The position numbers and the translations under genes were made by a program. The notes under the pieces were generated by a model. That model saw only the letters and a program-made list of their open reading frames with translations, had not been told where the DNA came from and ran no database searches. Shown here in pieces: positions 9,124 to 34,450 of a DNA stretch of 64,000 bases. Where the stretch lies: contig CP021423.1 in the NCBI GenBank assembly GCA_002162075.1, positions 2,356,001-2,420,000 of the forward strand. The letters are read 5' to 3'. The number at the start of each line of letters is the position of its first letter. Position 1 is the stretch's first letter. Source of the stretch: Armatimonadetes bacterium Uphvl-Ar1 (GTDB taxonomy: Bacteria; Armatimonadota; Fimbriimonadia; Fimbriimonadales; Fimbriimonadaceae).

Positions 9124-9594
9124 TTAAACCGTCACCGTCAAAAGGGCCCGACTCCGCTCATCCAAAACCTCAGTGTTCTGAATCTCGTACCGGTTCCCAT
9201 CCACATCTGCCAAAAGCAGATACGTCGGAGACAACCACTGGGCGTTCTCGCTCAAGCTCTGAGTAATAAATTCCTTCTGTCCCCGGTCTGTCAAAACCTT
9301 CCAGTAAGTTGAGCCAAATTCTGTCTTCGCGTCCACAATTTTCTCAATAACTCCATTCAGATACCTCCGCTGGATTTCCCGCATTGCGACTTCCCAAACA
9401 TCGGTCGGTAGTTCCGCCCGAGGATCAGTGACCATGAAAATCTCATGCCCCTTCCCATTCATAAACGCTAGGTAACGATCCGGAAAACTCAATGGAGATG
9501 CCCAAGCCAACTTAACATCGGTATAGCTCCGGTTCCCTTTTGTCAACCTCAGCCGGCCCTCCGGCGCATAAAACAGCTTCATTTCTTCCATCAA
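9124..9594 (-). CDS. DUF1854-family protein
   Basis: 156 residues. It resembles the DUF1854 family, whose genes sit beside an ABC exporter and often in cyanophycin-metabolism loci. Recognisable parts are the basic N-terminal strand region (GRLRLTKGNRSYTDVKLAWASPLS), a helix with EVAMREIQRRYLNGVIEKIV, and LLADVDGNRYEIQNTEVLDERS near the end. The molecular function is not established. The start overlaps the ABC gene's stop by 4 bases (ATGA), so the two are probably made together. No cyanophycin synthetase is present in this window. Confidence 0.7.
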   Translation of the reverse strand: MMEEMKLFYAPEGRLRLTKGNRSYTDVKLAWASPLSFPDRYLAFMNGKGHEIFMVTDPRAELPTDVWEVAMREIQRRYLNGVIEKIVDAKTEFGSTYWKVLTDRGQKEFITQSLSENAQWLSPTYLLLADVDGNRYEIQNTEVLDERSRALLTVTV

Positions 9595-11766
9595 ACTGCT
9601 CCAATCCCAATAATTTCGTTCACCGCACTTTGTGTCTGAACAAGATCATAAAACTTGCCCTTCTTCTCCATCAGCTCCTCGTGGGTTCCTTCCTCAACCA
9701 CTTTCCCCCGATCCATCACAAACAAGCGATCCGCATTCCGCAGAGTCGAAAGCCGGTGAGCGATCGCAAACGTAGTCCGCCCCTTGACCAAGTTCAAAAT
9801 CGCTTCCTGAATCTTACGTTCCGTCTCAACGTCCACGCTCGATGTCGCCTCATCCAGAATCAAAATTTTCGGATCATGCAAAATTGCTCTCGCAATCGAG
9901 ATTCGTTGCTTTTGCCCGCCGCTGAGCTTCGCCCCTCGCTCACCGACCACCGTATCGTATCCGTCCGACTTATCCAAAATGAAATCGTGAGCGTTCGCCG
10001 CCCGAGCCGCCGCAACAACTTCCTCAAATGACGCTTCCGGATTCCCATACTTAATGTTCTCCGCAATCGTCCCCGCAAACAAGAACGGCTCCTGCAAAAC
10101 AATCCCAATCTGATTCCGATAGCTCCGCAAATCAAGCTCTCGGTAATCAACTCCGTCAATCACAATTTGACCTTGATCAGGCTCATAAAACCGACTGACC
10201 AAGTTAATCGTCGTTGATTTTCCTGCCCCGAATGTCCAACTAGACCGATCATCTCGCCCGGCTTCACATCAAAACTCACTCCGTTGATAACCGGATTCGA
10301 TTTGTCATATCCAAACCGCACATCCCGGAACTCCACTCGGCCCTCGATCTTCTTTTCAATCGCCCCAATCCCGGTCGGTTCCGCCGTCATGTCAAGAATT
10401 TCAAAAATCCGCTCCGCCCCCGCCATTGCCCGGCTAAACCAGTTGTTCACACTCGCAAACCACTGCAACGGACCATAAACCATCCCCAAGTACATCTGGA
10501 CTCGGTAAAAATCACCCAACGAAAGCTGATTATTCAGCATCATGGTTCCCCCAATCGCCCAGTGAATGACCGTCCCCAAAGTTACACAAAGCGTCATCAC
10601 ACCAAAAGCCGTATGCCAAGTCTGATCCGCCCGAACGTGCGCATTCCGCAACTCTTGACTCCGCGTCTCGAAGCGAGAAAATTCGTCATCTTCCTTCGCA
10701 AAAGCCTTCACAACCCGAATCCCCATCAAGCTCTCGTTCAGGTGCATATGCACCCGAGCCATTTTCTGACTCACCCGGAAAAACAGGTTCGAAATCCTCC
10801 GCCAAACCTTCATTGAGATCAAAGCAACAAGCGGAATCGGCATCAAAACCGCAATCGCCAGCATCCAATTCACACTAAAAATCATTACCGCGACTGCCAG
10901 AAGCATCATGCCATTGATGATGATAAACGGCAATCCGTCAACAAGGAAAAACCAAACCCGATCTGTATCTTGAGTAACCCGGCTCGCAATCGCCCCCACT
11001 GGCTTCTTGTCGAAATAAGTCATCTGCAGGTGCTCGATCGCTCGATAAGTCGTTGTCCGCAAATCACTCGCCAAGTGCGCCCCCAAAAACGTCATCAACC
11101 GACCATTGAGAATCTGGAAGACCGCCATCGCGACCAAAACCACCACCCACAATCCGATAAATGGATAGAGCTGCTCGGTCGTCAGAGTCCCCTTGTTGAA
11201 CCGATCGAGGGCCTCACCCTGGATCGTCGGCGGCACCAATGCAAGCAAAGTCGAAACTGCCGCCATTCCTAGCAGCAACACAACACGGGATTTGTATGGA
11301 CCCAAAAACCCACCCAATCGGAGCATTGTCTTGCCTCGGTTGATACAACTCGGACAAACCCCATCCCGCTCCGGCAGCAGTTTCCCACACTTGTCACATC
11401 GCAATTTCTCCAATGACAGCTTGATATCGAGCGAATTCCCTTTCGCCAGCTGTTCAATACCCTGGCTAATTCTCCAAATTGTTGAGCATGGGTTAAAGAA
11501 TAGTAAGCCACAACAAGATCTTCGTGGGCTTTCGTACGCAAAATGAGACGACCACCACTCACCAAAGAATCATTCCGAGCCGACTCCAAATCTGCAATCG
11601 GTACCGAAACAAGCGTCGCTCCCGCCCCATCCAATACTCGAACCGTATCCGCCGAAACCTGAACAACTCGCTCGCCATAACGCCCCTCTTCCGTCAAATC
11701 AGCCGGAAGCTCAGCAAGAATTTTTTGACCCGAAATGGTGCCGGAATCAGGATCGGCGGAGAGCAT
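9591..11766 (-). pseudogene. ABC exporter with N-terminal PH-like and zinc-ribbon segments, two frameshifts
   Basis: A fused permease/ATPase exporter resembling the cyanophycin-associated subfamily. Three frame segments join into about 725 residues. Segment 11766 to about 11470 is a small beta-rich domain (RVLDGAGATLVSVPIADLES). The next holds a zinc ribbon (CDKCGKLLPERDGVCPSC), six transmembrane helices and the start of the ATPase (GLVGHSG). Segment 10202-9591 completes it with SGGQKQR signature, ILDEATSSVD Walker B and the IAHRLST switch. One missing G in the run at 10226-10229 restores GHSGAGKST. Another base is missing near 11470-11478. The substrate is unknown; the neighbours are DUF1854 and NamZ-like genes. 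Confidence 0.85.
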
Positions 11767-15190: not shown

Positions 15191-15916
15191 ATGGCACAAC
15201 CCCACCCTATTCTCGCCGTCATCCCCGCTCGTGGTGGGAGCAAGGGGCTGCCCGGCAAAAATCTCAAAATCCTAGGTGACATCCCCCTCATCGGCCACGC
15301 AATCAAACTTGCTCAATCTATTCCCGCTATCGCTAAAGTCATCGTCTCGACCGAATCACAAGAAATCGCCGCCGCCGCCAACTCAATGGGTGCCGAAACT
15401 CCGTTCCTCCGCCCGCCTCACCTCGCAACTGATACCGCCCCAATGTGGCCCGTTATTCAGCATGCACTGAGTTCCGCACGAGAGCATTACGGAGTTGACT
15501 ACCAGAGCATCCTCCTCCTCGACCCCACCGCCATCGGGCGTACACCGCTTGACATCATGGCAGCAATTCAAGCCTTAACCGACGACAAATCTGCCGATGG
15601 AGTTATCAGCGTCTCGGAATACGAGCACAATCCCCTCTGGTACGCTGTTCATCAACCAAATGGTTATCTGCAAGACCTGTGCTCTGATGGTAAAAACTAC
15701 GCCCGCAGACAAGATTTGCCGCCCGTTTACCGTATCAATGGCCAATACTATTTATGGCGGTCACCCTTCGTTCAATCGACCGACAATTGGCGAACTTCAG
15801 AAAAGCTGATCCTCTCCCCCATGTCAAATCCAAATCTTGCTCTCATCGACACCCCTGAAGACTTCAACCGAGCCGAAGAACTTCTCGCCCAAAACCTACT
15901 TTGGAAACCACAATGA
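15191..15916 (+). CDS. legF: CMP-nonulosonate cytidylyltransferase (LegF/NeuA-like)
   Basis: Activates a nonulosonic acid with CTP to the CMP-sugar, the last cytoplasmic step before transfer. The nucleotide motif AVIPARGGSKGLPGKNLK lies at about residues 9-26, with the LLDPTAIGRTPLDI and INGQYYLW regions typical of the family. The 241 residues match the single-domain enzyme. It is the first gene of the legionaminate operon, and the next gene overlaps its stop (ATGA). LegF is preferred over NeuA or PseF because of the co-encoded LegB, LegC and PtmE. Confidence 0.85.
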   Translation: MAQPHPILAVIPARGGSKGLPGKNLKILGDIPLIGHAIKLAQSIPAIAKVIVSTESQEIAAAANSMGAETPFLRPPHLATDTAPMWPVIQHALSSAREHYGVDYQSILLLDPTAIGRTPLDIMAAIQALTDDKSADGVISVSEYEHNPLWYAVHQPNGYLQDLCSDGKNYARRQDLPPVYRINGQYYLWRSPFVQSTDNWRTSEKLILSPMSNPNLALIDTPEDFNRAEELLAQNLLWKPQ

Positions 15917-16929
15917 TCAATAACCGAACCTTCATCATTGCCGAAGCGGGCGTCAATCATAACGGCTCCCTCGCAAAAGCCCTCGAACTGATTGAAGTCG
16001 CCGCCTCCGCCAAAGCCGACGCCGTCAAATTCCAAACATTTCGCGCCGAAGACCTCGTCACATCCACTGCTCCAAAAGCCGACTATCAAAAGCGCGCAAC
16101 CGGAGAAAATCAGTCGCAGTTCGAAATGCTCAAAGCACTCGAACTCACAATGACAGATTTCCAAGTCCTGTTCGATCACTGTCAAAAAAACGGGATCGAA
16201 TTCATGTCCACACCATTCGATGAAAAATCCGCCGATGAACTCGAAAGCCTTGGAATGACCACATTCAAAATCCCATCTGGCGAACTCACCAACCACCCGC
16301 TGATCCGCCACATCGCCCAAAAGCAGAAGCTCGTTATTCTCAGTACCGGCATGGCAACCCTTGATGAAGTCCACCAAGCGGTGGAAGCCATCCGCTCCGT
16401 CGGAAACACTCAGTTTCAACTCCTGCATTGTGTAAGTGACTACCCGGCAGATCCGGCCACCGTCAACCTTCGAGCCATGCAAGTCATGCGCGAACGATTC
16501 CAAGTTCCGGTCGGCCTCAGCGATCACACCCTCGGGATTCACATCCCCATCGCCGCCGTAGCCATGGGGGCAAGTTGTATCGAGAAGCACTTCACGCTCG
16601 ATAAATCTCTTCCCGGCCCCGATCACCAAGCATCTCTCTGTCCACAAGAAATCCACCAAATGGTGAGTCAAATCCGAGATGTAGAAAGTGCATTTGGTAA
16701 CGGCATCAAACAGCCCACCGAAGCCGAAAGAAAAACCGCCCTGATCGCCCGTCGATCAGTCGTCCTTGCTCGCGATCTACCCGCTGGTCACTTGCTCACT
16801 TCGAGCGACCTCATTCTCCGCCGACCAGGAACCGGATTTCCCCCCAGTGAGCTACCATATCTTGTCAATAGAAAGCTCAAATTGAACCTCCCCAAAGACC
16901 ACATCCTCCAGGAATCTGATCTCCAATGA
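15913..16929 (+). CDS. legI: N-acetylneuraminate/legionaminate synthase (LegI/NeuB-like)
   Basis: Condenses a 2,4-diacetamido hexose with phosphoenolpyruvate to make the nine-carbon acid. A TIM-barrel domain (IIAEAGVNHNGSLAKALELI, DAVKFQTF, MSTPFD, GLSDHTLG, EKHFTLD) is followed by a SAF/antifreeze-like domain from about residue 275 (RRSVVLARDLPAGHLL). The chosen ATG at 15913 overlaps the legF stop; an in-frame TTG at 15901 was rejected. The length of 338 residues is normal. The 3' end overlaps legG by 4 bases. Confidence 0.9.
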   Translation: MINNRTFIIAEAGVNHNGSLAKALELIEVAASAKADAVKFQTFRAEDLVTSTAPKADYQKRATGENQSQFEMLKALELTMTDFQVLFDHCQKNGIEFMSTPFDEKSADELESLGMTTFKIPSGELTNHPLIRHIAQKQKLVILSTGMATLDEVHQAVEAIRSVGNTQFQLLHCVSDYPADPATVNLRAMQVMRERFQVPVGLSDHTLGIHIPIAAVAMGASCIEKHFTLDKSLPGPDHQASLCPQEIHQMVSQIRDVESAFGNGIKQPTEAERKTALIARRSVVLARDLPAGHLLTSSDLILRRPGTGFPPSELPYLVNRKLKLNLPKDHILQESDLQ

Positions 16930-18095
16930 AACGGAAAATTGCCGCCGTCACCGTTGCCCGCAGCGACTATGGACTTTACATTCCTATCTTTGACGAGATC
17001 CTCAAGCACCCCGATGTCGACCTACAAGTCATTGCCGCCGCCGCCCATCTCAGCCCCCGCTTCGGATCCACGATCGACCAAATCCGCGCCGATGGTTATC
17101 CGGTCGCCGCAACTGTCGAAATGACCCAGGAACTCGACGATCCCCACTCCGTCAACATCGCGACCGCTACCGGAATCCCGCTGTTCAGCAAGGCATATCA
17201 AGACCTCAAACCCGACATCCTTCTCCTCCTCGGCGACCGGTACGAGATGCATGCCGCTGGCCTTGCGGCAGTTCCTCACCTCATCCCCGTTGCCCACATT
17301 CACGGAGGCGAAGAAACCACTGGTGCCATCGACAATGTATTCCGCCACTCCCTCACAAAACTCAGCCATCTCCACTTCGCCAGCAATCAAGACCATGCTA
17401 ATAGAATCATCCAAATGGGTGAGAATCCTTCGCGCGTCTTCGTCTCCGGTGCACCGGGACTTGATCGCATCTTAAACTCCAATCCGCCCACATTCGAGGA
17501 ACTCCAATCCCACCTTCCAAAAGAACTCACACCACCGTACATCATCGCTACGTTCCACCCTGTCACAACTGAGCCAACCGATGCTAAAATTCAAGCCCAG
17601 AATTTCCTCCGCGCTCTCCAAATTCAGACTCTTCCGGTTCTTCTCACAATGCCAAATGCCGATACTGGCGGTCTCGCTGTCCGCCAAGCCATCAAAGAGA
17701 TTGCGTCCGATTTCCCCCACCTCATCACTGTCGAAAATCTTGGCGCCCGCCTCTATCTCACGGCAATGAAAAACGCCCAGTACATGGCCGGAAATAGCAG
17801 CAGTGGAATCATCGAAGCCGCCAGTTTCGGACTCCCCGTAGTCAATATCGGTAATCGTCAGCAAGGCAGGGCCCAATCGGGGAACGTCATAAACTGCGGC
17901 ACGTCCCAAATTGAAATCGAAAAAGCACTTCAAAAAGCCTTTGATACAGACAAGTTCACAAAGCCAAATATCTACGGAGATGGCCAAGCGGCCCAGAGAA
18001 TTGTTAAGACTTTGGCATCAATAGAGCTTTCGCCCGATTATATTAAGAAATCGTTCTATTCCCAAGCAATAATAAGAGGGGAACAAGACGTCTAA
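16926..18095 (+). CDS. legG: Hydrolysing UDP/GDP-sugar 2-epimerase (LegG/NeuC-like)
   Basis: Releases the nucleotide and inverts C2 of the diacetamido sugar, providing the substrate of LegI. It has a GT-B-like two-domain fold of 389 residues, with the opening VTVARSDYGLYIPIF, LLGDRYEMHAAGLAAVPHLIPVAHIHGGE and NSSSGIIEAASFGLPVVNIGNRQQGR. The motifs match the NeuC/LegG family. Its ATG overlaps the legI stop. A 77-base gap follows before the CBS-nucleotidyltransferase gene, the largest gap within the operon. Confidence 0.88.
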   Translation: MKRKIAAVTVARSDYGLYIPIFDEILKHPDVDLQVIAAAAHLSPRFGSTIDQIRADGYPVAATVEMTQELDDPHSVNIATATGIPLFSKAYQDLKPDILLLLGDRYEMHAAGLAAVPHLIPVAHIHGGEETTGAIDNVFRHSLTKLSHLHFASNQDHANRIIQMGENPSRVFVSGAPGLDRILNSNPPTFEELQSHLPKELTPPYIIATFHPVTTEPTDAKIQAQNFLRALQIQTLPVLLTMPNADTGGLAVRQAIKEIASDFPHLITVENLGARLYLTAMKNAQYMAGNSSSGIIEAASFGLPVVNIGNRQQGRAQSGNVINCGTSQIEIEKALQKAFDTDKFTKPNIYGDGQAAQRIVKTLASIELSPDYIKKSFYSQAIIRGEQDV

Positions 18096-18172
18096 CCTGT
18101 GCGACTAACATTAAGGGCAACAAGGTCGATGCCTACGCCGTTGAGTCACACCGCTCAAATTAGGGACACGAC

Positions 18173-19240
18173 ATGCTTCGACAAACTGAACTAGGAAAAT
18201 TTATTTGCCACGAAAGCCATACCCTCCGGGATGTTCTCCGGAAAATCAACGATAATGTTGCCGGTATCGCCCTTGTCACCGATAGCGAAGATCGCCTCAA
18301 ACGGGCCATCACCGACGGGGATATTCGCCGCGCCATCCTCGCCGGTCATTCAATAGATTCAACCGTCGCCGAATTCGAGCGAGATTTCCCTGGTCGCGAA
18401 CCAACTGTCGCCCACCAAAGCGAATCTCCTGCGCAAATGCGCCAACTCATGCTCCGCGACCACATCCGTCAGCTTCCCCTGGTGGATCACGATTTTCGAG
18501 TGGTGGACATCATTCTTCTCGATGATCTTCTTCTCAGCGAAAAACCCCCTGTCAACGCCGTGGTTATGGCGGGTGGATTCGGCACTCGGCTTCGACCGCT
18601 GACCGAAGACCTCCCAAAACCCATGCTCCCCGTAGGCGACCGTCCACTTCTGGAGCGGATCATCGGTCAACTCAGTGTTTCCGGCATTAGCGGGGTCAGC
18701 GTTACAACGCACTATATGCCTGAAGTGATCCAAGAGCACTTCGGTGATGGATCAGATTTCGGCGTCAACATGAGCTATGTCCACGAGGAAACTCCGCTCG
18801 GAACGGCCGGTGCCCTCCGCATGATTCCCCGTCCCGAAGGTCCACTTTTAGTAATGAATGGTGACATCCTCACCGGAATTGATTTCCGGCATATGACCAA
18901 CTATCACACCGAGCACCAAGCCGACCTCACTCTCGCTGTCCGCCCATACGAAGTCTATATTCCCTATGGTGTGGTCGAATCTGACGGCCCCATGCTCACC
19001 AACCTGGTCGAAAAGCCAACTCAAACGCATTTCGTAAACGCTGGGATCTATCTCCTCAGTCCCGCCGCATTTGACTATCTGGGATCAGAAGGAAAACTCG
19101 ACATGACGCAACTCGTCGATCGCCTCCTCGAAAATGGACGCCGCGTCGCCACCTTCCCCGTCACAGAATACTGGCTCGACATCGGTCATATTGACGACTA
19201 CAACCAAGCCCAACAAGACGCCGCCGAAGGCCTGGTCTGA
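18173..19240 (+). CDS. ptmE: CBS-domain sugar-1-phosphate nucleotidyltransferase (PtmE-like)
   Basis: 355 residues. Two CBS motifs (about 1-120; LRDVLRKINDNVAGIALVTD and VDHDFRVVDIILLDDL) precede a nucleotidyltransferase domain with VVMAGGFGTRLRPLTEDLPKPMLPVGDRP at about 127-155. In Campylobacter, PtmE makes GDP-glucosamine as the entry to the GDP-linked legionaminate route; its CBS domains may sense nucleotides. A clear ribosome site (AGGGA) sets the ATG. Neither PtmA nor PtmF is seen here, so GlcN-6-P may come from central metabolism. Confidence 0.83.
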   Translation: MLRQTELGKFICHESHTLRDVLRKINDNVAGIALVTDSEDRLKRAITDGDIRRAILAGHSIDSTVAEFERDFPGREPTVAHQSESPAQMRQLMLRDHIRQLPLVDHDFRVVDIILLDDLLLSEKPPVNAVVMAGGFGTRLRPLTEDLPKPMLPVGDRPLLERIIGQLSVSGISGVSVTTHYMPEVIQEHFGDGSDFGVNMSYVHEETPLGTAGALRMIPRPEGPLLVMNGDILTGIDFRHMTNYHTEHQADLTLAVRPYEVYIPYGVVESDGPMLTNLVEKPTQTHFVNAGIYLLSPAAFDYLGSEGKLDMTQLVDRLLENGRRVATFPVTEYWLDIGHIDDYNQAQQDAAEGLV

Positions 19241-19270
19241 TTGATCTTCATTCATGCTTAAATAACAGGC

Positions 19271-20254
19271 ATGAACTGGAATGGCAAGCGCGTCCTCGTC
19301 ACCGGAGCCGGAGGCTTCATCGGAAGCCATCTCGCCGAAGAACTCGTCCGACGCGGCGCAGATGTCACCAGCTTCGTTCGATACAACGGACCCGGACGAT
19401 GGGGCTGGCTCGACGAATCACCGCTCGCCAACCAAATGCGCATCCATGCAGGGGACATCGGCGACAACGAATCAGTCGTCGAGGCCATGACTGGACAAGA
19501 CATCGTTTTCCATCTTGCTGCCCTCATTGCAATCCCTTACAGCTATTCCGCGCCTCGCAGTTACATCCGCACCAATATCGAAGGCACAATGAACGTCGTT
19601 AATGCCGCTCGTTCCCTTGGTACCGAGCGCATTATTCACACCAGCACTTCCGAAACATATGGCACCGCCATCACCGTCCCGATCACCGAAGAACACCCCC
19701 TCCAAGGCCAATCCCCGTACAGCGCATCCAAGATTGGCGCCGACAAAATCGCTGAAAGTTTCTATCTCAGCTTCAATGTCCCCGTCGTGACCATCCGGCC
19801 ATTCAACACCTTCGGCCCCCGACAATCCGCCCGCGCCGTCATCCCAACCATCATCAGCCAGCTTTACAAGGGCGAAGCCGTCAAGCTCGGGTCAGTCACC
19901 CCAACCCGTGATCTCAACTTCGTAAGTAACACTGTCGAAGGCTTCCTCGCCGCCGCTGAACCAACCGCCGCCATCGGTCAAACAATCAACCTGGGGAGTA
20001 ACCGCGAAATCAGCATCGGTGACCTCGCTCATCTCATCGCCAAACTCATGGACAAACCGATCGAAATCATCATTGATTCCCAGCGCGTCCGCCCCGAAAA
20101 CTCCGAAGTTGAACGCCTCCTCGGCTCCGCCGAAAAAGCCCAAGAACTTCTCGGCTGGACTCCTCGCGTCACTCTCGAAGACGGCCTCGTCGAAACAATC
20201 GAGTGGATGGGCAACCACCTTGCCAAATACAGACCAGAGATTTACGCCGTCTAA
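19271..20254 (+). CDS. legB: NAD-dependent 4,6-dehydratase (LegB-like)
   Basis: An extended SDR epimerase/dehydratase of 327 residues. It has the NAD motif VTGAGGFIGSHLAEEL at about 8-23, the HLAALIAIPYSY segment and the catalytic YSASKIGADK. LegB makes the 4-keto-6-deoxy intermediate in legionaminate biosynthesis. The placement between PtmE and the aminotransferase matches the pathway order. The stop is 4 bases before the legC ATG. Confidence 0.88.
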   Translation: MNWNGKRVLVTGAGGFIGSHLAEELVRRGADVTSFVRYNGPGRWGWLDESPLANQMRIHAGDIGDNESVVEAMTGQDIVFHLAALIAIPYSYSAPRSYIRTNIEGTMNVVNAARSLGTERIIHTSTSETYGTAITVPITEEHPLQGQSPYSASKIGADKIAESFYLSFNVPVVTIRPFNTFGPRQSARAVIPTIISQLYKGEAVKLGSVTPTRDLNFVSNTVEGFLAAAEPTAAIGQTINLGSNREISIGDLAHLIAKLMDKPIEIIIDSQRVRPENSEVERLLGSAEKAQELLGWTPRVTLEDGLVETIEWMGNHLAKYRPEIYAV

Positions 20255-20258
20255 ACCC

Positions 20259-21422
20259 ATGTCAAACGATCAAGAGTTCATCCCCCTTTCGGTTCCCTAT
20301 ATCGCCGGGAACGAATGGAAATACGTCAAGGATTGCCTCGATACCGGATGGGTCAGCAGTGTCGGGAGTTATGTCAACCAATTTGAAGAGGACTTTGCTC
20401 AAGTCACTAAAACTTCTCACGCTGTCGCGTGCGTCAATGGGACTGCCGCTCTTCACATTGCTCTTGTCACTTGCGGAGTCAAACCCGGCGACCAAGTGCT
20501 TGTCAGCAATCTCACATTCATCGCATCCGCCAACAGCATCTCGCACGCAGGAGCAACCCCCGTGTTTATTGATGCCGAGCCAGATTATTGGCAGATCGAC
20601 CCCGCAGAAATCGAATCCTATCTCAGAAACGAATGTCAATTCATCAATGGCGAAACAATCCACAAGTCAACCGGACAGCGGGTTAAAGCCATCATGCCCG
20701 TCCACATCCTCGGCAATCCCGTTAATATGGATCCAATTCTCACCCTAGCAAAGGAGTTCAATCTTGCAGTCATCGAAGATGCAACCGAATCCCTCGGCGC
20801 AACTTACAAGGGCCACCCCGTTGGCTCATTGGGGGATATGGCCGCCTTTAGCTTTAACGGTAACAAACTCATCACCACCGGCGGCGGAGGAATGATCACA
20901 ACCAACAATCCCGAACTTGCCCAAAAAGCAAAACACCTCACCACTACGGCAAAAATCGAGCCCATCGAGTTCATCCACGATGAAATCGGCTACAATTACC
21001 GCCTCGTCAATCTCCTTGCCGCAGTTGGTGTCGCACAACTCGAACAACTCCCTGAGTTCCTTGCCAAGAAACAAGAGATCACCTCCTGGTACACCGAACT
21101 TCTCAGCGATCATCCCGGCATCCAACTCATGCCGGAGCCACCCTATGGAACCTCTGCGCGGTGGCTTTACACAATTCGTTTACTCAACAACAATTGGAAA
21201 TCAATTAATGAATTCTTAGCCGGAAAAAAAATTCAAACCCGCCCACTGTGGCAGCCAATGCATCTTTCACCTGCATACAGAACGCTGAATAGCAGGAAAT
21301 GCCCAATTTCTGAATTATTACAAAATCGCTGTTTGAGTCTTCCTTGCTCTGTGAACCTTTCAAAGTCCCAGGCCGAGCAAGTTGCGGCCCAACTCAAATT
21401 AGCCGTCAACCAAGTAAAATAG
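20259..21422 (+). CDS. legC: PLP-dependent 4-aminotransferase (LegC-like, DegT/DnrJ/EryC1)
   Basis: Transfers an amino group to C4 of the keto sugar. The 387 residues start IPLSVPYIAGNEWKYVKDC and carry the PLP-lysine region AFSFNGNKLITTGGGGMI, plus EDATESLGATYKGHPVG with the cofactor aspartate. The ATG at 20259 was chosen because the longer frame (from 20019) lies inside legB and gives an unrelated extension. It is cotranscribed with legB and followed after 27 bases by the amidotransferase gene. Confidence 0.9.
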   Translation: MSNDQEFIPLSVPYIAGNEWKYVKDCLDTGWVSSVGSYVNQFEEDFAQVTKTSHAVACVNGTAALHIALVTCGVKPGDQVLVSNLTFIASANSISHAGATPVFIDAEPDYWQIDPAEIESYLRNECQFINGETIHKSTGQRVKAIMPVHILGNPVNMDPILTLAKEFNLAVIEDATESLGATYKGHPVGSLGDMAAFSFNGNKLITTGGGGMITTNNPELAQKAKHLTTTAKIEPIEFIHDEIGYNYRLVNLLAAVGVAQLEQLPEFLAKKQEITSWYTELLSDHPGIQLMPEPPYGTSARWLYTIRLLNNNWKSINEFLAGKKIQTRPLWQPMHLSPAYRTLNSRKCPISELLQNRCLSLPCSVNLSKSQAEQVAAQLKLAVNQVK

Positions 21423-21449
21423 TTAGCGTTACACCCCATAAGGAACTGC

Positions 21450-22796
21450 ATGGCTAAGAAGTACCCCGCTCGCCGAGAAATTGACTACACGAAGTACGAT
21501 AAGCCCGAAGGTCAACTTGAAACTTATTACGGTCTTCCCCAAGAAATAAAGTTCTGTCGCCGATGCGTCATCTCCAATCAAAGGCCAAACTCTGCCGTCG
21601 AATTCAAGCACACCAAAGAAAGTAAAAAAGTTACCATCAACTTCGATGATGAGGGGATTTGTGATGCATGCCGACTGGCCGAACAAAAGCACGACGGGCG
21701 AATCGACTGGGATCTCCGAGAAAAGGAACTCATCGACCTCTGCGACCGCTTCCGTAAGACCGATGGCTCCTACGACTGCCTCATTCCAGGATCAGGCGGC
21801 AAAGATAGCTTTTATGCTGCTCACATTCTCAAAGAGAAATATGGGATGCACCCTCTCACAGTAACCTGGGCACCCCACGTCTACACAGAATGGGGCTGGC
21901 GCAATTTCCAAAAGTGGATCCATGCCGGATTCGATAACTACCTCTGTACACCGAACGGTCGCGCCCACCGGCTTCTAACCAGACTTGCAGTCGAAAACCT
22001 GTTCCACCCCTTCCAGCCGTTCATCTTCGGTCAAAAGCTGCTCGCACCAAAAATGGCTGCACTTTTCAATCTTCCCCTTGTCTTTTATGGTGAAAACGAA
22101 GCCGAATATGGCAATCCAATTGCCGATACAACAACGGCCAAGCGAGACTATTCCTACTTTGCCGATCAGGATAACTCAGAAATTTATATTGGTGGAACCA
22201 GTGTCCAAGACCTCATCGACTATTTCGGATTCGACCTTGCCGATCTCAATCCGTACCTCCCCGCCGATCCGGAAGAGCTTGAAAAGAAAAAGGTCGAAGT
22301 CCATTACACCGGCTACTATCTCAAATGGCACCCCCAGAGCTGCTACTACTACAGCGTCGAACATGGCGGCTTCGAAGCTTCACCTGAGCGAACACCAGGA
22401 ACCTACAGTAAATACAATTCAATCGACGACCGCATTGACGACTTCCACTACCACACCACCTATACTAAATTTGGTATCGGTCGAGCAACCTATGACGCTG
22501 CTCAAGAAATCCGATCTCAAGATATCGAACGAGAAGAAGGAGTCGCCCTCGTCAAGAAATTCGATGGTGAATTCCCCGAGCGATTTGCCGACGAAATCTT
22601 CGCCTATCTCAGCCTTCCGGAAAAAGAATTTCCCGAAGCATCAAAAATGTTCGAGCAACCCATCATGGATCGAGCTTATTACGACAATCTCGCTGACTCC
22701 TTCCGGTCACCACACCTTTGGAAACATGAAAATGGCGTCTGGAAACTCCGAAAAACCATCTTCGAAACCGAGGCTCTGTCTGCCAGCTATCAATAA
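21450..22796 (+). CDS. N-acetyl sugar amidotransferase (WbpG/PseA/PtmG family)
   Basis: 448 residues. An N-terminal zinc-binding pair (CRRCVIS and GICDACRLAEQ) precedes an ATP pyrophosphatase domain with the P-loop PGSGGKDSFYAAHIL. Homologues turn an N-acetyl group into an acetamidino group, with ammonia from a HisH/HisF pair. The two genes that follow are exactly such a pair. This predicts an acetamidino-legionaminate or similar sugar. A good ribosome site (AGGAA) precedes the ATG. Confidence 0.88.
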   Translation: MAKKYPARREIDYTKYDKPEGQLETYYGLPQEIKFCRRCVISNQRPNSAVEFKHTKESKKVTINFDDEGICDACRLAEQKHDGRIDWDLREKELIDLCDRFRKTDGSYDCLIPGSGGKDSFYAAHILKEKYGMHPLTVTWAPHVYTEWGWRNFQKWIHAGFDNYLCTPNGRAHRLLTRLAVENLFHPFQPFIFGQKLLAPKMAALFNLPLVFYGENEAEYGNPIADTTTAKRDYSYFADQDNSEIYIGGTSVQDLIDYFGFDLADLNPYLPADPEELEKKKVEVHYTGYYLKWHPQSCYYYSVEHGGFEASPERTPGTYSKYNSIDDRIDDFHYHTTYTKFGIGRATYDAAQEIRSQDIEREEGVALVKKFDGEFPERFADEIFAYLSLPEKEFPEASKMFEQPIMDRAYYDNLADSFRSPHLWKHENGVWKLRKTIFETEALSASYQ

Positions 22797-22799
22797 ACT

Positions 22800-23558
22800 A
22801 TGCGTGACGTTCGCGTAATCGCCCGACTCGATATCAAGAGCCCAAATCTCATAAAAGGGATTCAGCTCGAAGGTCTACGCAAACTGGGAGACCCTCAGCC
22901 GTTTGTAGAAAGTTATTACGCCCAAGGAATTGACGAAATCTGTTACATGGATATCGTCGCAAGTCTCTACGACCGAAATTCCCTCGAAGACCTTCTCCGC
23001 AAAACCGCCGAAAACATCTTCGTACCGCTCACCGTTGGCGGCGGAATTCGTACTGTCGAGAACGCTGCAACTCTTCTCCAGTCGGGTGCCGATAAAGTCG
23101 CGATCAATACCGCGGCTGTTAGAAATCCTGACCTGATCCGCCAAATCAGCGAGCGGTTCGGCAGTCAATGCATGGTTCTCAGCATCGAAGCAAAATCAAC
23201 TACCGCAGGCAAATGGACTGCCTTCACCGACAACGGACGAGAACACACAAATCGTGACGTCATTGAGTGGGTTCAAGAAGCCGTCGAACTGGGAGTCGGC
23301 GAAATCCTGCTAACTAGCGTCGACCAAGAAGGCACCCAAAAAGGATTCGACCTCGAACTTTGCCGCGCCGTGACAAACGTAGTTGAAGTCCCGGTCATCC
23401 TCAGCGGGGGCCTCGGCTCCCTAGACGATGCAAAAGTGGCTGTTTCACAGGGAAGAGCGGATGCAATAGCAGTCGCTCATGCCCTTCACTACAACAAATT
23501 CTCCGTAGCTCAACTGAAAAACTCCGTCAAAGAAGCCCAAAGCGAGAGTGCAGCTTGA
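22800..23558 (+). CDS. HisF-like cyclase paralogue for sugar amidination (HisF2/WbpI-linked type)
   Basis: A TIM barrel of 252 residues. The opening RVIARLDIKSPNLIKGIQLEGLRKLGDP is the signature of the glycan-associated HisF branch rather than the histidine-biosynthesis enzyme. LTVGGGIRTVENA and VILSGGLGSLDD are the phosphate-binding loops. It is thought to channel ammonia from HisH to the amidotransferase. No other histidine genes are near. The stop overlaps the TTG start of the hisH-like gene by 4 bases. Confidence 0.87.
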   Translation: MRDVRVIARLDIKSPNLIKGIQLEGLRKLGDPQPFVESYYAQGIDEICYMDIVASLYDRNSLEDLLRKTAENIFVPLTVGGGIRTVENAATLLQSGADKVAINTAAVRNPDLIRQISERFGSQCMVLSIEAKSTTAGKWTAFTDNGREHTNRDVIEWVQEAVELGVGEILLTSVDQEGTQKGFDLELCRAVTNVVEVPVILSGGLGSLDDAKVAVSQGRADAIAVAHALHYNKFSVAQLKNSVKEAQSESAA

Positions 23559-24184
23559 ACCTTACACTGATCGACTACGGAACCGGAAATCTATTCAGCG
23601 TTCGGCGCGCTCTGGAGGTCTGTGGTGCCAACATCCGGGTCATCCACCACCCCAATGAAGCAAAGAACTCGGATCGGCTCGTTGTCCCCGGCGTGGGAGC
23701 ATTCGGTAGCTGTATTACTGAACTCCATCGCCTCCACTTCAACGATGCAATCAAGGAACATATCGCCACTGACCGTCCGTTCCTTGGTATTTGTGTGGGA
23801 ATGCAAATGCTGATGACCACAAGCTACGAATTCGGACAACACTCCGGACTCAATCTCATCCCCGGAACCGTTCAAGAAATTCCAAACCGAACGGATTCGG
23901 GTGAGGTCAGAAAACGCCCTCACATCGGTTGGACATCCCTATCCGAGGGTCAGCCCTGGTCAAACACAATCCTTTCCCAAACAACCAAAGACGACCGATT
24001 TTATTTTGTCCACAGCTTCAGCGTTGTCCCAGATAACCCGGCCCACATTCTAGCCCTAACTGACTACGATGGACATGAGATCGTTGCCGCCGTCAAAAAA
24101 GACAACATCTTTGGCACCCAATTTCACCCTGAGAAATCCGGCCCCGCTGGTCTAGCAATCCTCAAGCAGTTTTTATCACTTTAG
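23555..24184 (+). CDS. HisH-like glutamine amidotransferase paralogue for sugar amidination
   Basis: A class I glutaminase of 209 residues. The triad is present: nucleophile Cys in FLGICVGMQML, and His-Glu in GTQFHPEKS. It should release ammonia for the amidotransferase through the HisF-like partner. Translation appears to begin at TTG 23555, overlapping the upstream stop (TTGA). Its 3' end overlaps the convergent Wzy-like gene by 23 bases, so the two operons may interfere by antisense transcription. Confidence 0.87.
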   Translation: MNLTLIDYGTGNLFSVRRALEVCGANIRVIHHPNEAKNSDRLVVPGVGAFGSCITELHRLHFNDAIKEHIATDRPFLGICVGMQMLMTTSYEFGQHSGLNLIPGTVQEIPNRTDSGEVRKRPHIGWTSLSEGQPWSNTILSQTTKDDRFYFVHSFSVVPDNPAHILALTDYDGHEIVAAVKKDNIFGTQFHPEKSGPAGLAILKQFLSL

Positions 24185-26480: not shown

Positions 26481-28288
26481 TTAGACGATCAGAGCTTCTT
26501 CAGGCAAATGAGCTTCCAATTCATTTCGATCAATGAATAGCCGGAACCAAATCTCCAATGCCAGAAGCAATCGAATTTGACGTGTGTGATCAACTACCCC
26601 CGACTCATGCTCTTCCAGCATTCGGCTCACTACTTCAGGTTCAAAAAGCCCCCGCTGCATAAACCGATCAGAATGAAGTAACCCTTTCGTGAACCCAGAC
26701 AAAACATCTTTGAACCACTCCCCAATCGGCACTGTGAACATCCGTTTGTCCCGATAAGTGAGTTCATCACCAAGTAACTCCCGAACCGCTTTCTTGTAAC
26801 CATAACGGGTGACATCACCGCGAACCTTCAGATCCCCGGAACACTCAAAGCAAACTCTGCCAAATGTTTATCCAAAAACGGATCTCTCGCCTCGAGCGAA
26901 ACCGCCATCGCCATCCGATCAGGTTTCACCAGATTGTTTCCAGGCAGCAAAAGTGCAATATCAAGCCACAAGGCTTGGCTAATTCGATCAAAATGGGGCA
27001 CCTGCTCAAGCCAATGCCGCGACACGTCAATAGAATTCAAGTCCTTTACTTTTGCCGACTGAGTGCCCGAATAAAGTCCATGCTTTTCATCCTCAGAGAA
27101 CAACGTGATATGCTTGTGATAACCCGCTACGAATTCTTCGAGGGGCTGATTTAAGCCATTTTTTGCAAAATAACCTGTATATTTCGTGTACCCTCCAAAC
27201 AGCTCGTCACCTCCATCACCAGTGAGGACCATCTTGACGTGCTGAACCGCCAACTCGCTCAATCGCATGGTTGGCAAAAAGCTCACATCACTGTGCGGCT
27301 GGTCGCAGTGATAAACCGCTCTAACCCATTTGTGCACGATCTCTGGGCCAACGAACTCCACGTGATGGTCGGTTCCAAAACGCTCACTTGCCATCCGTCC
27401 CCACATGGATTCATCAAATCGCTCGTCATGAAACCCAATTGAAAATGTCTTCACCGGTTGATCCGTAAACCGACCCATCAACCCTACGACCGAACTGGAA
27501 TCAAGCCCACCACTCAAAAACGCACCAAAAGAAACATCACTTCTCATCCGGAGCCGAACCGAATCCTCTAAAAGACCCACAAACTGATCACAAAACTCGG
27601 ACTCTCCGATCGACCGTTGCTCCGTTTCCGTCGGCTTCCACCACTGCCATTCCGATACCCCAGCATCAGAAATCGTTGCCCCCCAACCAGGCATCAAGTG
27701 TCGAATACCCTGAAACAATGTATATGGCGGAGGAACATAACCATAACTCAAAAAGTGATGAAGAGCCTCATCCGAAACTTTGCGGTCAACCCCTGCCGCT
27801 AAAATCGCTTTGATCTCACTTCCAAAGAAAACTCGGTCTCCCAACTCACACAGAAACATCGGTTTAACGCCCAGCGCATCCCGAATGATGTGCAATTCCC
27901 CCGACCGCTCATCCCAAATCGCAATCCCAAACATCCCCGTGAGACGATGAACAAATCCAAACCCCAGGTCATATACCCTTGAAGAAGCACTTCCGTATCA
28001 CTATTCGTATCAAACTTACACCCAAGCTCCTTCAGGTCATTTCGCAACTCCAAGTAGTTATAAATTTCTCCGTTCTGCACCAAAGCAACTTGACCACAAG
28101 ATGAAACCATCGGCTGATGCCCACTCGCTAAATCAATAATCGACAAACGCATATTCCCGATCGCCGCATTCGAACCTACAAAAACTCCCGCATCATCCGG
28201 GCCCCTGTGCCGAATGCATGCCCCATAACCCCACACAAATCCGCCGAGACATTACCCCGCGATCAAAAAACCCCTGAATGCCGCACAT
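26481..28288 (-). pseudogene. asnB: Asparagine synthetase-type amidotransferase (AsnB family), four frameshifts
   Basis: The repaired reading gives about 603 residues. ATG 28288 exposes nucleophile Cys2 (MCGIQGFFDRG). IRHRGPDDAGVFV, QNGEIYNY and the ATP loop FLSGGLDSSSVVGL follow, then LEARDPFLDKHLAEFALSVPG and YGYKKAVRELLGDELTYRDK. Each break fits one lost base: G runs at 28255-28258, 28221-28224 and 26834-26837, and a T or G near 27952-27965. In polysaccharide loci AsnB homologues amidate uronic or other acidic sugars, which fits here better than housekeeping asparagine synthesis. It sits between the sugar transferase and Wzz. Confidence 0.83.
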
Positions 28289-28291
28289 CGC

Positions 28292-28845
28292 TCAATTGCC
28301 TCCGCGAAAGAGTACCTGTCGAACTGTCAATCCCAGTACCTTCAAGTCCAAGCCAAGCCCCGCTCCTTCAACGTACTCGAGGTCAAGTCGTGTGCGCTCT
28401 TCCGGAGTCGCCGCACTGCGTAGAGTCGCCTGCGCCAATCCGGTAATCCCTGGACGAACCGAGCAACGCTTGGCCCACTCTTCGGGAGAGTAGTTTTCTT
28501 CCTGCATCGGAGTGTCCGGCCGGGGCCCGACCAAACTCATGTCACCCTTAATCACATTCCAAAGCTGAGGTAACTCATCAAGCGACGCTTTCCGAATCAA
28601 ACGCCCAGGTGCCGTAATACGACTATCTCCATCTGTAGTAGAATAGCCCCCAATCTTATCTGCATCCGATACCATGCTCCGGAATTTATAGACCTCAAAC
28701 ACTCTGCCCCCCAGTCCAACACGTTTTTGTCGATAAATCGCACCACCGGGTGAATTCAGCGCAATCCAAATTCCGAGTATCAACAAGATTGGCCACAAGA
28801 AATTAACAAAACAATGCTAACTGCGAGGTCGAAAATCCGCTTCAC
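28292..28845 (-). CDS. Initiating sugar-phosphate transferase (WcaJ/PglC-type), one frameshift near the N-terminus
   Basis: Transfers the first sugar-1-phosphate to undecaprenyl phosphate at the inner membrane. The core reads from 28798 to 28292: YKFRSM, RKASLDELPQLWNVIKGDMSLVGPRP and RPGITGLAQATLR. Upstream, GTG 28845 after a strong ribosome site (GGAGG) opens VKRIFDLAVSIVLLI in another frame. Adding one T to the run at 28800-28802 joins the membrane helix as LLIFLWPILL. The repaired length is about 184 residues, a PglC-like short form. It overlaps the aldolase stop (GTGA). Confidence 0.85.
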
Positions 28846-29668
28846 CCACCCCTCCGAATCCTATCCGCAATCATCCGCGTTCTCTCGCCTAACTCCTTCC
28901 GATCCGCCTCCCGCTGATCATCATCCCGTTGAGCTAAATCGTCCAGACACTCTCGAACCAACTCAACTTCGCGAGCAAAGTCAAGCTCCGGCGGCATCTC
29001 ATCCAGTGTTTTCACCCCGCCTGTAAAAGCCCGGCTCAGAATGACTGCTTCACTGCCCAACCGCTCATGTTCGCCCATGATCAAGCGCGCTGGCAAATCA
29101 CCTCCCCCCACCCGAGCAACTCCACCAAATCCAAACGAAACGCTTTGCTCAAGCGACTTGCCCGCTGCCAAATCGATGAGCCCCCCGCCAAAACCTCAAA
29201 CAGAAAATCAAGCCCCATATCAAGATGCAAATCATTCAGCCCAAAGTGAATTTCATCCAAACCACCATCCGCCAAAATCGAATCTAACCTCGCCAAACCC
29301 GCCGAAGTCTCACACAAACCGACTTTCACGCAACGATCCCCAACGCAAGAAGTACATGCTGCCACTTCGTCCGCATGGCGGAACATCGGCAACATCACCG
29401 CCCCCGCTCCAGCGCTAATGACCGCTTCAATTTCTTCCGGCGACTCTTCATGCCAAGGATTCACCCGAACCATCAACTGGCTCATATCCACAACTTCCCG
29501 AACCGCTCGCACATCATCCAGCGAATGCCTGCTGATCACCGTATCTTTGTGCCCTTGCCGCTCGACCTTTCCGTGAATCTCCAGATCAACAAAAATCCGA
29601 TCAACTCCCGCCCCCACCGCCATCCGCGCCATCGCCGGATCCGCCGTTATCAAGTAAAGCCGCATCAA
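28842..29668 (-). pseudogene. HpcH/HpaI aldolase/citrate lyase-family protein, one frameshift
   Basis: The repaired protein has about 275 residues. N-terminal LITADPAMARMAVGAGVDRIFVDLE, then RVNPWHEESPEEIE, GAGAVMLPMFRHADEV and HFGLNDLHLDMG show the TIM-barrel aldolase family that cleaves or forms C-C bonds with pyruvate or acyl-CoA. The frame breaks in a G6 run (29181-29186 on plus); one more G joins GGLIDLAAGKSLEQSV. The substrate is unknown. Its place between the flippase and the initiating transferase, with 4-base overlaps on both sides, suggests it makes or modifies a polymer component. Confidence 0.78.
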
Positions 29669-31172
29669 CTTCGCCCCATCTTGCGCAAGATTACTCCCTT
29701 CACCTTCCCCCGAATCTCCCCATCAACCATCAGCCCTCCGATCATCGCGAATCCACCCGCCCCAATCGCCAGAAGCACAACCAGAATGGGCGACATTTGA
29801 AACACATTAACCTTTTGCAACCCAACAAAGCAAACCCCAAAGACCCCGACTGTCGCTCCTGACCGGATCAGAGCCTGCCCCCCCACAAAAGCATCAACTA
29901 GCCACATCTTGTGGCGAACTCCCAGCAAGCACAAAAGCCCGAGCATAACCACCCAATGAAATCCCGAATAAAGCCACGCCAAGCTCATCAGGTCAATGAC
30001 ACCCGCAAATCCAAACCCTAAGAACGCCGCAAGCCCAACCAAGCTGATCCAAAACGGCGTCCACATATCACGATATCCATTAAAAATCGCGAGAAACATT
30101 GTGTTTACAGCTTGAGGAATCAATCCCACCATCATGATCGCACCCATCTGAGCAATCAGCCGGGCATCCTTAAGCGTCATTTCTCCGTGCCGATAAAGCA
30201 AATCCGCAAAGCCTTGCGCGAAGAATCCCATCCCTAAAGTAATCGGAACTGATAAAGCCAAGATCACCCCGATTCCTTGCCGCGCAAAATCTCGAGCTTC
30301 TTCAAAACCATCTTCTTTCGCCAATGCCGCCGCAACCGCCGGAAACATCGCAATGCTCACCACACTTAAAAGCGTCCCCATCGGAAGTTCAACCAATTTA
30401 GAAGCAAGATAAGCCGTCGTCTGGCCCCCCACCCCATTTGCCGATGCAAACCCCCGCAACGCAACCGGGACAATCAAGATCATCATCCCCGCAACCAACG
30501 CCCCCAAAACCTCCCGACCAACCCCCACTCAATTTGCCGAGCCTTCACCCCCGATGCGCGAAATCGCCATGCATCCCAAACCTGCATCAACAAGCTCAAC
30601 CCCGCCCCCAAAACCGCCGCAACCGCCAGCCCCGTCAAATTCCCAATCCCACTTGCAAAAACAAGCCCCGCAACAATCATCAAGTTATAGAAAAAACCCG
30701 CCAACGACGGCACCGCGAACCTCTCTTCACCCTGCAGTCTCGCCCGCACCACCGCCGAGACCGCCGTAATTGGAACCGCCAGCAAAGCGACCATCACCAA
30801 TTTCGCCGTACCCGGAATAGCATCCTTCGGCAACCCAGAAACCAGCGTCCGAGTCAACCACTCAGCCGAGAGAATCAAAGCCGCGGTTACTATCCCGACA
30901 ATGACCAAGACCAATCCTGATGCTTGCCGGAGCAACGCCCAATTTTCTTCCGCATTCCGGCGTTTGAACTCCGGAATCAAAGCCGCTCCCATGGCCCCGC
31001 CGATCAAAATATTGATCATCACATCCGGAATCGTAATCACGAAAACTGCACGATCTGCCTCAACGCCCACCCCAAATTGATTCCCAATGATGACATCCCG
31101 AACCAAGCCCAAAATCCGACCTAACATAATCCCTGCAAAAAGCCAAACTCCTGCCCCCAAGAAGCGCTTCAT
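29665..31172 (-). pseudogene. MurJ/MviN-family lipid flippase, one frameshift
   Basis: Two frame segments (31172-30483 and 30528-29665) join into about 502 residues with the roughly 14 helices of the MOP superfamily. MurJ-like segments are RILGLVRDVIIGNQFG near the N-terminus and IPEFKRRNAE. The break lies in a G5 run (30522-30526 on plus); adding one G gives IEWGVGREVLGALVAG. MurJ flips lipid II; inside this glycan operon the protein may instead be the Wzx-type flippase for the lipid-linked repeat unit. Both roles remain open. Confidence 0.83.
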
Positions 31173-31175
31173 GAA

Positions 31176-32342
31176 CTAGCGCCCCTCCAGCAACGACTCA
31201 ACCACCCGAACAACCCGCATCGTCGCCGGCCCACTTTCGAAACTACCAAAGTCAAGTTCCGATCCCAAAACATCAAATACTCCCTTTACTGTCTGAGCAA
31301 CCCGGCCAATCCCCATCGTCGCAAAAGGAGCTGGATCAGCGAACACTGGAATATCCAAAGTCACCATCGGCTTACCCAATATCGCCGCTTGTAACCCAAC
31401 GCTTGAGCTCACAACCACGCACGCATCACAACCTGCGAGGGCTCCCCACAGAGAATCATCGCGGTCGCTTACTGGTGTGCCACAGGGCAAACCACCCGGA
31501 TCAAACTGCTCGTTTGGATGCGGTCGTACCACTACGTTCCATCCGCAAGCCTTTCCAAATTCAACAAGTTGAGTACCAATTGTCGTCCCAAGGTATTGGT
31601 ACCGATCTGGCTGTGAGGCAAAGAGCAAAACTCGATCCTCTTCGCTAAATCCAAACTTTCTCCTCCAAGCCGCTCTTTCGGCTTTCTCGTCCATCAAAAA
31701 CAACTCATCAAAAGCGGCATTTCCTGTCACAACCACCTCCGACTCAGGTCGTCCGGCATCGATAAGTCTTTGCTTAACCCCCTCACTCAAAACACAGACA
31801 ACATTCCCATAACCCGGGTCGCGTAACCATTCGACTTCGCTCTGCGGCATTAAATCCACAACCACAACCGCCGGAATGTGACGCTCCTTCGCAACCAAAA
31901 CCGCTGCCCGCTCCGCCCTCGGGCTATTTGTCGCAAGAATCAGATCAGGTTGCAGCTCATCAAACACCCGGTTCAAGATTTCAACCGGAAGAAACGCCTG
32001 CCTCCCTTTCTGCTCATAGGCTTCCCGAGCCCCTTCGACCCCCAACTGAGCTTCCAAACATTTGTAACTCAAACCCAAATAGGCTAGAGTCTCTTCTGGA
32101 TGAACGTCAGAGTGTGCCTCAACGGTACCGACAAGCTCCCGTCCCAAATCCAATATAGACGCATCACCTTGCACAAAATCACGGAACCCTATCGTCTGCA
32201 AACCTGCGCGACTTACTGGCCCCCAGGCTGTCGTCAAAGCCAAAACCACAACCTCGTATCCCAATTCTTGCAATCGCAGTGCAACCGGAATGACCATATT
32301 CGCATGACCTGCACCATAGGTCACCGCCAATATCTTCTTCAC
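31176..32342 (-). CDS. GT-B-fold glycosyltransferase-like protein
   Basis: 388 residues from GTG 32342. The N-terminal Rossmann half opens ILAVTYGAGHANMVIPVALRLQELG. The C-terminal half has VVVRPHPNEQF and CVVVSSSVGLQAAILGKPMVTLD, a nucleotide-sugar site like that in UDP-GlcNAc 2-epimerase and CDP-glycerol transferase relatives. It is the first gene of the polymer-assembly operon. A role in transferring the nonulosonate or another sugar is plausible but unproven. Confidence 0.65.
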   Translation of the reverse strand: MKKILAVTYGAGHANMVIPVALRLQELGYEVVVLALTTAWGPVSRAGLQTIGFRDFVQGDASILDLGRELVGTVEAHSDVHPEETLAYLGLSYKCLEAQLGVEGAREAYEQKGRQAFLPVEILNRVFDELQPDLILATNSPRAERAAVLVAKERHIPAVVVVDLMPQSEVEWLRDPGYGNVVCVLSEGVKQRLIDAGRPESEVVVTGNAAFDELFLMDEKAERAAWRRKFGFSEEDRVLLFASQPDRYQYLGTTIGTQLVEFGKACGWNVVVRPHPNEQFDPGGLPCGTPVSDRDDSLWGALAGCDACVVVSSSVGLQAAILGKPMVTLDIPVFADPAPFATMGIGRVAQTVKGVFDVLGSELDFGSFESGPATMRVVRVVESLLEGR

Positions 32343-32427
32343 GCCAAATGCACCGCCATCAGGAATTCCCCATCATGATAGCAGTTCTTATAGCAAAATC
32401 CGCTGAAACGGTAACCTTAGTGAAGCT

Positions 32428-33856: not shown

Positions 33857-34450
33857 ATGGCTCCTATCCTCATCCACGGCGCCGGCGGACACGCCAAGGT
33901 CGCATATACCGTCGCCATCGCGAGCCAAAGAGAAGTCATCGGCTTCCTCGATCCCCACTCCCCCCACCAAACCCTCTTCAACCTCCCCATATTCAAATCA
34001 AACCCCTACCGTTCCGACGCCGAAAACCTCATCGCCATCGGCAACAATGAAATCCGCCAGCAACTCGCCGAAAAGGAACTCAACGCCTTTGCCACCCTCG
34101 TTCACCCGTCCGCGATTATCGCCCCCGGAGTGACCCTTGGGCCCGGAACCCTCGTCTGTGCCGGCGCAATCATCGAAGCCGATTCAACCATCGGCTCCCA
34201 TACCATCATTAACAGCGGAGCAACCATCAACCACGACTGCACCATCGGAAACTACGTCCACATCTCTCCCGGTGCCACGCTTTGCGGAGGAATCACTGTC
34301 CACGATCAAGCCCTCATCGGGGCCGGGTCAACCATCATTCCAAACATCACGGTGAACAAAGAATCAACCCTCGCCGCCGGAGCAACCCTTATCGAAGACC
34401 TCCCCCCCGGCGAAACCTGGGGCGGCGTACCCGCCCGGTACCTCGGCTAA
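33857..34450 (+). CDS. legH: Sugar N/O-acetyltransferase (LegH/PglD/NeuD-like)
   Basis: 197 residues. An N-terminal Rossmann-like domain (ILIHGAGGHAKVAY) is followed from about residue 85 by left-handed beta-helix hexapeptide repeats (GVTLGPGTLVCAGAIIEADS, NHDCTIGNYVHISPGA) that bind acetyl-CoA. PglD and LegH acetylate the 4-amino group of the UDP/GDP-linked sugar. It supplies the one acetylation step missing from the legionaminate operon 10 kb away. It is separated from that operon by the assembly genes and the tRNAs. Confidence 0.85.
   Translation: MAPILIHGAGGHAKVAYTVAIASQREVIGFLDPHSPHQTLFNLPIFKSNPYRSDAENLIAIGNNEIRQQLAEKELNAFATLVHPSAIIAPGVTLGPGTLVCAGAIIEADSTIGSHTIINSGATINHDCTIGNYVHISPGATLCGGITVHDQALIGAGSTIIPNITVNKESTLAAGATLIEDLPPGETWGGVPARYLG

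Follow-up and report, generated by a model that had tools for sequence, protein, structure and literature searches.

A predicted CMP-legionaminate pathway with an amidination module in an Armatimonadota genome

The analysis of a 64,000-nucleotide stretch of the genome of Armatimonadetes bacterium Uphvl-Ar1 (one contig of 2,985,450 bases), referred to here as the window, identified nine intact and tightly packed genes, all on the + strand (15191-24184), and a tenth gene further downstream (Table 1). Together these very probably specify a complete GDP-type CMP-legionaminate pathway and an amidination module, whose product, CMP-Leg5Am7Ac, would go into a surface polysaccharide or glycoprotein. 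The identities of the genes, the completeness and conservation of the set and the behavior of the module among related genomes were observed directly. The nine reading frames were intact and lay where the initial annotation of this DNA had placed them.

Table 1. Genes assigned to the predicted pathway and the amidination module.
Gene and predicted product	Position	Strand	Basis of assignment
LegF, CMP-legionaminate synthetase (CTP_transf_3)	15191..15916	+	PF02348 79 bits
LegI, NeuB-family nonulosonate synthase	15913..16929	+	TIGR03569 457 bits (cut-off 400); NeuB and SAF domains
LegG, hydrolysing 2-epimerase (NeuC family)	16926..18095	+	TIGR03568 410 bits (cut-off 236)
PtmE, CBS and nucleotidyltransferase, proposed GlcNAc-1-P guanylyltransferase	18173..19240	+	CBS and NTP_transferase domains
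LegB, GDP-GlcNAc 4,6-dehydratase	19271..20254	+	TIGR04180 460 bits (cut-off 475, slightly below); next model 158
LegC, PLP aminotransferase	20259..21422	+	TIGR04181 478 bits (cut-off 420)
NASAT (PtmG/WbpG/PseA family), predicted ATP-dependent amidine-forming enzyme	21450..22796	+	TIGR03573 383 bits (cut-off 203)
HisF-like subunit (WbuZ), proposed ammonia conduit	22800..23558	+	TIGR03572 279 bits (cut-off 300)
HisH-like glutaminase	23555..24184	+	TIGR01855 203 bits (cut-off 105)
LegH candidate, NeuD/PglD-family N-acetyltransferase	33857..34450	+	Sole gene of the genome above the TIGR03570 cut-off

Bit scores refer to NCBIfam models with curated cut-offs, which were exceeded by LegI, LegG, LegC, NASAT and HisH, while LegB and the HisF-like protein fell slightly below those of their best models. 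For LegF and PtmE no equivalog exceeded its cut-off, and their identities come from their domains and their conserved position or context. LegF scored below the cut-off of the PseF model (124 bits, cut-off 206), and its position is kept in two genomes of the same genus (G151 and G152) and three of the same family (G119-G121). Mannose-1-P guanylyltransferases were among the solved sequences nearest to PtmE, and for both PtmE and LegB we infer a specificity for GDP rather than UDP.

The overlapping or near-touching reading frames described initially were confirmed. LegF and LegI (ATG at 15913), LegI and LegG, and HisF and HisH each overlap by 4 nt, and the gaps measure 3 nt (NASAT-HisF), 4 nt (LegB-LegC, ATG at 20259), 27 nt (LegC-NASAT), 30 nt (PtmE-LegB) and, as the largest, 77 nt between LegG and PtmE. 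That junction is where a LegH homologue lies within the operon in G119-G121; gene order is otherwise identical in those genomes, and it is the same throughout in G151 and G152. Promoter and terminator scans gave hits at chance level only, and a single transcript for the nine genes is a fair guess.

The gene list of the initial annotation held for the nine operon genes and omitted LegH, for which a candidate is present in the window 9.7 kb past the operon, beyond two tRNA-Gly genes. Each of the four genomes of the genus in which LegB and LegI occur (G000, G151, G152 and G157) carries this gene, while among the four same-genus genomes without the Leg operon one has a 38% relative and three have none. 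The predicted GDP-type CMP-legionaminate set (PtmE, LegB, LegC, LegH, LegG, LegI and LegF) is thus complete, with LegH outside the operon. The source of glucosamine-1-phosphate had been described as open, which it is not, since searches of the genome identified glmS (732 bits), glmM (492 bits) and glmU (571 bits), each above its curated cut-off. PgmL/GlmM and GlmU have been assigned to steps related to GlcN-1-P in Plesiomonas (PMC4481668).

The protein families suggest the following route, and it is from them that each reaction, the C5 position, the stereochemistry and the destination of the sugar are predicted. GlmS, GlmM and GlmU would supply GlcNAc-1-P, which PtmE would convert to GDP-GlcNAc. 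LegB would then dehydrate GDP-GlcNAc, LegC would aminate C4, and LegH would acetylate the C4 amine. Hydrolysis and epimerization by LegG would give 2,4-diacetamido-2,4,6-trideoxymannose, which LegI would condense with phosphoenolpyruvate and LegF would activate to CMP-Leg5Ac7Ac. Ammonia freed from glutamine by HisH would be carried by the HisF-like barrel to NASAT, which, using ATP bound at its PP-loop, would convert one N-acetyl group, most likely that at C5, to an acetamidine, yielding CMP-Leg5Am7Ac.

The assignment of NASAT is central to this scheme. Residues 5-447 of the window protein aligned over the full length with residues 21-462 of the L. pneumophila NASAT in 8WEX (760 bits), a solved crystal structure (PMC10607449), and its identity to Legionella homologues is 71-72%. 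The zinc tetracysteine (C36/C39/C71/C74) is invariant in 91 of 91 loci, as are the S, G, G, D and S of the PP-loop motif SGGKDS. The O-antigen of L. pneumophila is built of 5-acetamidino-7-acetamido legionaminic acid; the ptmG homologue of that species has been assigned the conversion of CMP-Leg5Ac7Ac to CMP-Leg5Am7Ac (PMC3766260). In the NASAT tree, in which Campylobacter PtmG was not included, the window protein fell within the Leg-linked group, with the paralogues apart; several paralogue branches were very long, so only the separation of the groups was used.

Relatives of NASAT are encoded by at least 452 candidate stretches in named genomes, and the idea that the cluster is specific to Legionella, or rare, was rejected on that count. 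At least 14 phyla are represented among the 80 best-matching relatives in these genomes. Among these 80, the loci of at least 16 kb (n = 53) were used for counts of co-occurrence: HisF accompanied NASAT in all 53, HisH in 52, LegG in 50 and LegI in 49. LegB of at least 50% identity was found in 29 of the 53, and 28 of those 29 also have PtmE. The other 24, including the four Legionellaceae loci, are an upper bound for clusters without such a LegB because some loci cover only part of the cluster. One NASAT subfamily therefore appears to serve both GDP-type clusters and LegB-less, probably UDP-type, clusters, which would fit a late action of NASAT, after the first nucleotide has been lost.

The best product call is Leg5Am7Ac, the amidine-bearing, sialic acid-like sugar of the O-antigen of Legionella, from which it first became known, or else one of its stereoisomers. 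The amidinated legionaminate that had been predicted for this DNA therefore stands as the best-supported product, and the pseudaminic and neuraminic acid alternatives raised alongside it fit less well. Pseudaminate is unlikely because the PseI and PseC models score below their cut-offs on the window genes (296 bits, cut-off 340, and 271 bits, cut-off 424, respectively) and because LegG belongs to the hydrolysing 2-epimerase (NeuC) family. To our knowledge, the established pathway to plain neuraminate does not involve LegB, LegC, LegH or PtmE. A wider form of this alternative is that the substrate of the trio (NASAT, HisF and HisH) is pseudaminic acid, neuraminic acid or, as for WbpG and WbuX, a polysaccharide hexosamine. 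The family model TIGR03573 does cover a mixed family that includes WbpG, acting on ManNAc3NAcA, and WbuX, acting on FucNAc (PMC10607449). Nevertheless, we consider this highly improbable given the low PseI and PseC scores, the presence of LegG in nearly all the loci counted above, and the grouping of the window NASAT with the Leg-linked proteins, from which the paralogues in pseudaminate contexts and in second copies are separated at about 30% identity. One such paralogue, from a genome of the same phylum (G005), lies beside PseI (471 bits) and PseC (471 bits) and is 28% identical to the window NASAT.

Less easily set aside, though still improbable, is that the product is an amidinated stereoisomer, such as 8-epi- or 4-epi-legionaminic acid, or that the amidine is at C7 instead of C5. 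The isomers of legionaminic acid have a synthesis pathway in common (PMC7371886), and neither stereochemistry nor the site of amidination is fixed by sequence. Against this, the Legionella NASATs that the window protein so closely resembles belong to organisms whose sugar is a C5-acetamidino acid of the D-glycero-D-galacto configuration (PMC3766260), and the operon is without an extra epimerase.

The HisF-like protein has WbuZ as its top-scoring model, and it scored 268 bits with the hisF model TIGR00735 (cut-off 295). That score, and a HisH above the hisH cut-off, would suit a second histidine-biosynthesis pair unrelated to any sugar. We regard such a pair as extremely unlikely: the HisF-like protein is below the hisF cut-off, NASAT is accompanied by HisF and HisH almost without exception, and the genome has a separate canonical hisF elsewhere (344 bits), so the trio is not part of the histidine pathway. 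The residues of the barrel argue in the same direction. The window protein keeps R5, E46, K99 and E168, as do nearly all of the sampled HisFs (with D98 conserved likewise in the Leg-linked ones). We take these four residues to be the ammonia gate of HisF; E168 corresponds to E167 of Thermotoga HisF. D11 is also kept, and D130 is replaced by E; at this position the Leg-linked HisFs have E in 72 cases, Q in three and D in three. The second-copy HisFs at other loci, which their neighboring genes suggest belong to WbpG-type trios, keep D130 and mostly have L instead of D11, and four are cut at the N-terminus. Both aspartates are kept in the canonical HisF of this genome, and both are essential to the cyclase reaction (PMC5919458). 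Such a pattern would be anticipated if these HisFs conduct ammonia and do not act as cyclases. The catalytic C80, H191 and E193 of HisH are conserved in 83 of 83, 81 of 81 and 81 of 81 sequences, respectively.

Within the family, LegB is present in 13 genomes, in which it forms one clade (support 96), and seven of these have a Leg-type NASAT. The same-genus genome G157 (92% complete) keeps the Leg operon, in which LegC is followed directly by a membrane protein and then a convergent asparagine-synthase gene, and no NASAT match was found in it. Similarly, G118, which belongs to the genus of the trio-bearing G117, keeps the Leg operon and has a membrane protein and an Acyl_transf_3 protein in the slot of the trio (L184:11890-13943), with no NASAT match in the genome. 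Its flanking genes (asparagine synthase, sugar transferase, aldolase, MurJ and glycosyltransferase) are ordered as in the window. We tentatively propose, at somewhat short of an even chance for the whole, that the trio is a plug-in module, present or else absent or replaced within a genus, such that the surface nonulosonate would change from amidinated and charge-balanced to acidic and either plain or O-acetylated, or back, and that the NASAT-linked HisFs are non-cyclase ammonia conduits that have lost one of two catalytic Asp residues, the lost residue differing between the NASAT classes. A comparison of close relatives that have the trio with others that do not would be a natural test of the effect of amidination, and the HisF residue pattern is a testable account of how a HisF turned into an ammonia conduit.

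Independent acquisition of the trio by the genus of the window and by the lineage of G117 and G119-G121 was also considered, as suggested by NASAT identities of 71-73% within the family and of up to 79% to Cohnella. It was dropped because an AU test did not reject one origin, the tree in which the family was held together being the better one (p 0.956).

Four genes near the operon are frameshifted in this assembly and intact in G151, three of them in the polysaccharide locus (26484-33203). The asparagine synthase is in four pieces, and the HpcH-type aldolase, the MurJ-like flippase and the ORF at 32428 are each in two, every one a single frame in G151. The ten genes of Table 1 are free of these frameshifts, which are due either to a cluster of assembly indels or to the decay of glycan-assembly genes. 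With three genes of the polysaccharide locus frameshifted, it is not certain that this strain exports the glycan. A glycosyltransferase-like gene with weak Epimerase_2 similarity (31176-32342), kept beside the locus in G151, G152, G121 and G118, encodes a candidate nonulosonate transferase. Elsewhere in the window, an ABC transporter is split across two reading frames (9591-11413).

Several other arrangements were noted among the loci compared. Five loci from Acidimicrobiia-type Actinomycetota (L080, L087, L101, L106 and L110) have two tandem NASATs in or beside Leg-type clusters, first one of 30-32% identity followed by HisH and HisF, then one of 70-72% followed by HisF, which points to a nonulosonate amidinated twice or to a second sugar with an amidine. 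Rhizobiales loci (L082, L085 and L089-L092) have a second HisH-HisF pair 5-6 kb downstream of the Leg-type trio, alongside a 29-31% NASAT in two loci. Two IMG/VR contigs classed as viral (L044 and L045) encode NASATs of 44-46% identity together with LegF, accompanied by LegC, LegI, LegG and LegH on L044 and by PtmE on L045; no HisF or HisH was found on either by similarity.

The initial annotation had described such sugars as little described in this lineage. A limited literature search for nonulosonic acids in Armatimonadetes found no publications, and for the chemistry in Armatimonadota the description is apt; it does not extend to the gene set, whose arrangement is shared by at least 14 phyla. 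As the gene set is found in many other bacterial phyla, the window represents a new host of a known pathway and not a new system. The complete amidinated-legionaminate gene set is now extended to a little-studied phylum, and because Leg-linked NASAT, HisF and HisH are common to at least 14 phyla, a sugar familiar from the pathogenesis of Legionella probably represents a surface chemistry that is widespread in the environment.

Campylobacter had been put forward as the parallel for the trio; the closest parallel tested is instead Legionella, where NASAT, HisF and HisH also occur together with Leg genes. The L. pneumophila O-antigen legionaminate locus (ORF 21-28) has the same NASAT subfamily (72% identity to L. 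norrlandica), and in Legionella loci NASAT-HisF-HisH lie together with NeuA, NeuB, NeuC and NeuD genes. The Legionella product class is known to be Leg5Am7Ac, and the Legionella route has been read as proceeding through UDP-bacillosamine, the dehydratase being encoded elsewhere than in the locus (PMC3766260). No LegB of at least 50% identity occurs in the Legionella loci compared, whereas the window has LegB and PtmE, as does Campylobacter. The Campylobacter CMP-Leg pathway (PtmE, LegB, LegC, LegH, LegG, LegI and LegF, with PtmG), compared here at the level of its enzyme set, has the same enzymes and likewise proceeds through GDP-sugars (Schoenhofen 2009, cited in PMC7439481 and PMC4481668). 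It differs in that the operon of the window is without PtmA and PtmF and has the HisF/HisH partners inside it. Betaproteobacterial, Geobacteraceae, Cohnella and other environmental clusters (L048-L060 and others) have the same LegB-C-G-I-H-PtmE-LegF-NASAT-HisF-HisH content, with NASATs 73-79% identical, in an order different from the LegF-I-G-(H)-PtmE-B-C-NASAT-HisF-HisH of the family of the window. More distantly, WbpG/HisH2/HisF2 of P. aeruginosa O5 and WbuX of E. coli O145 share the NASAT family and the amidination chemistry (PMC10607449). Their substrates are ManNAc3NAcA and FucNAc, identity between the window NASAT and the paralogues of other clusters is about 30%, and the second-copy HisFs are without D11 whereas the Leg-linked HisFs are without D130.
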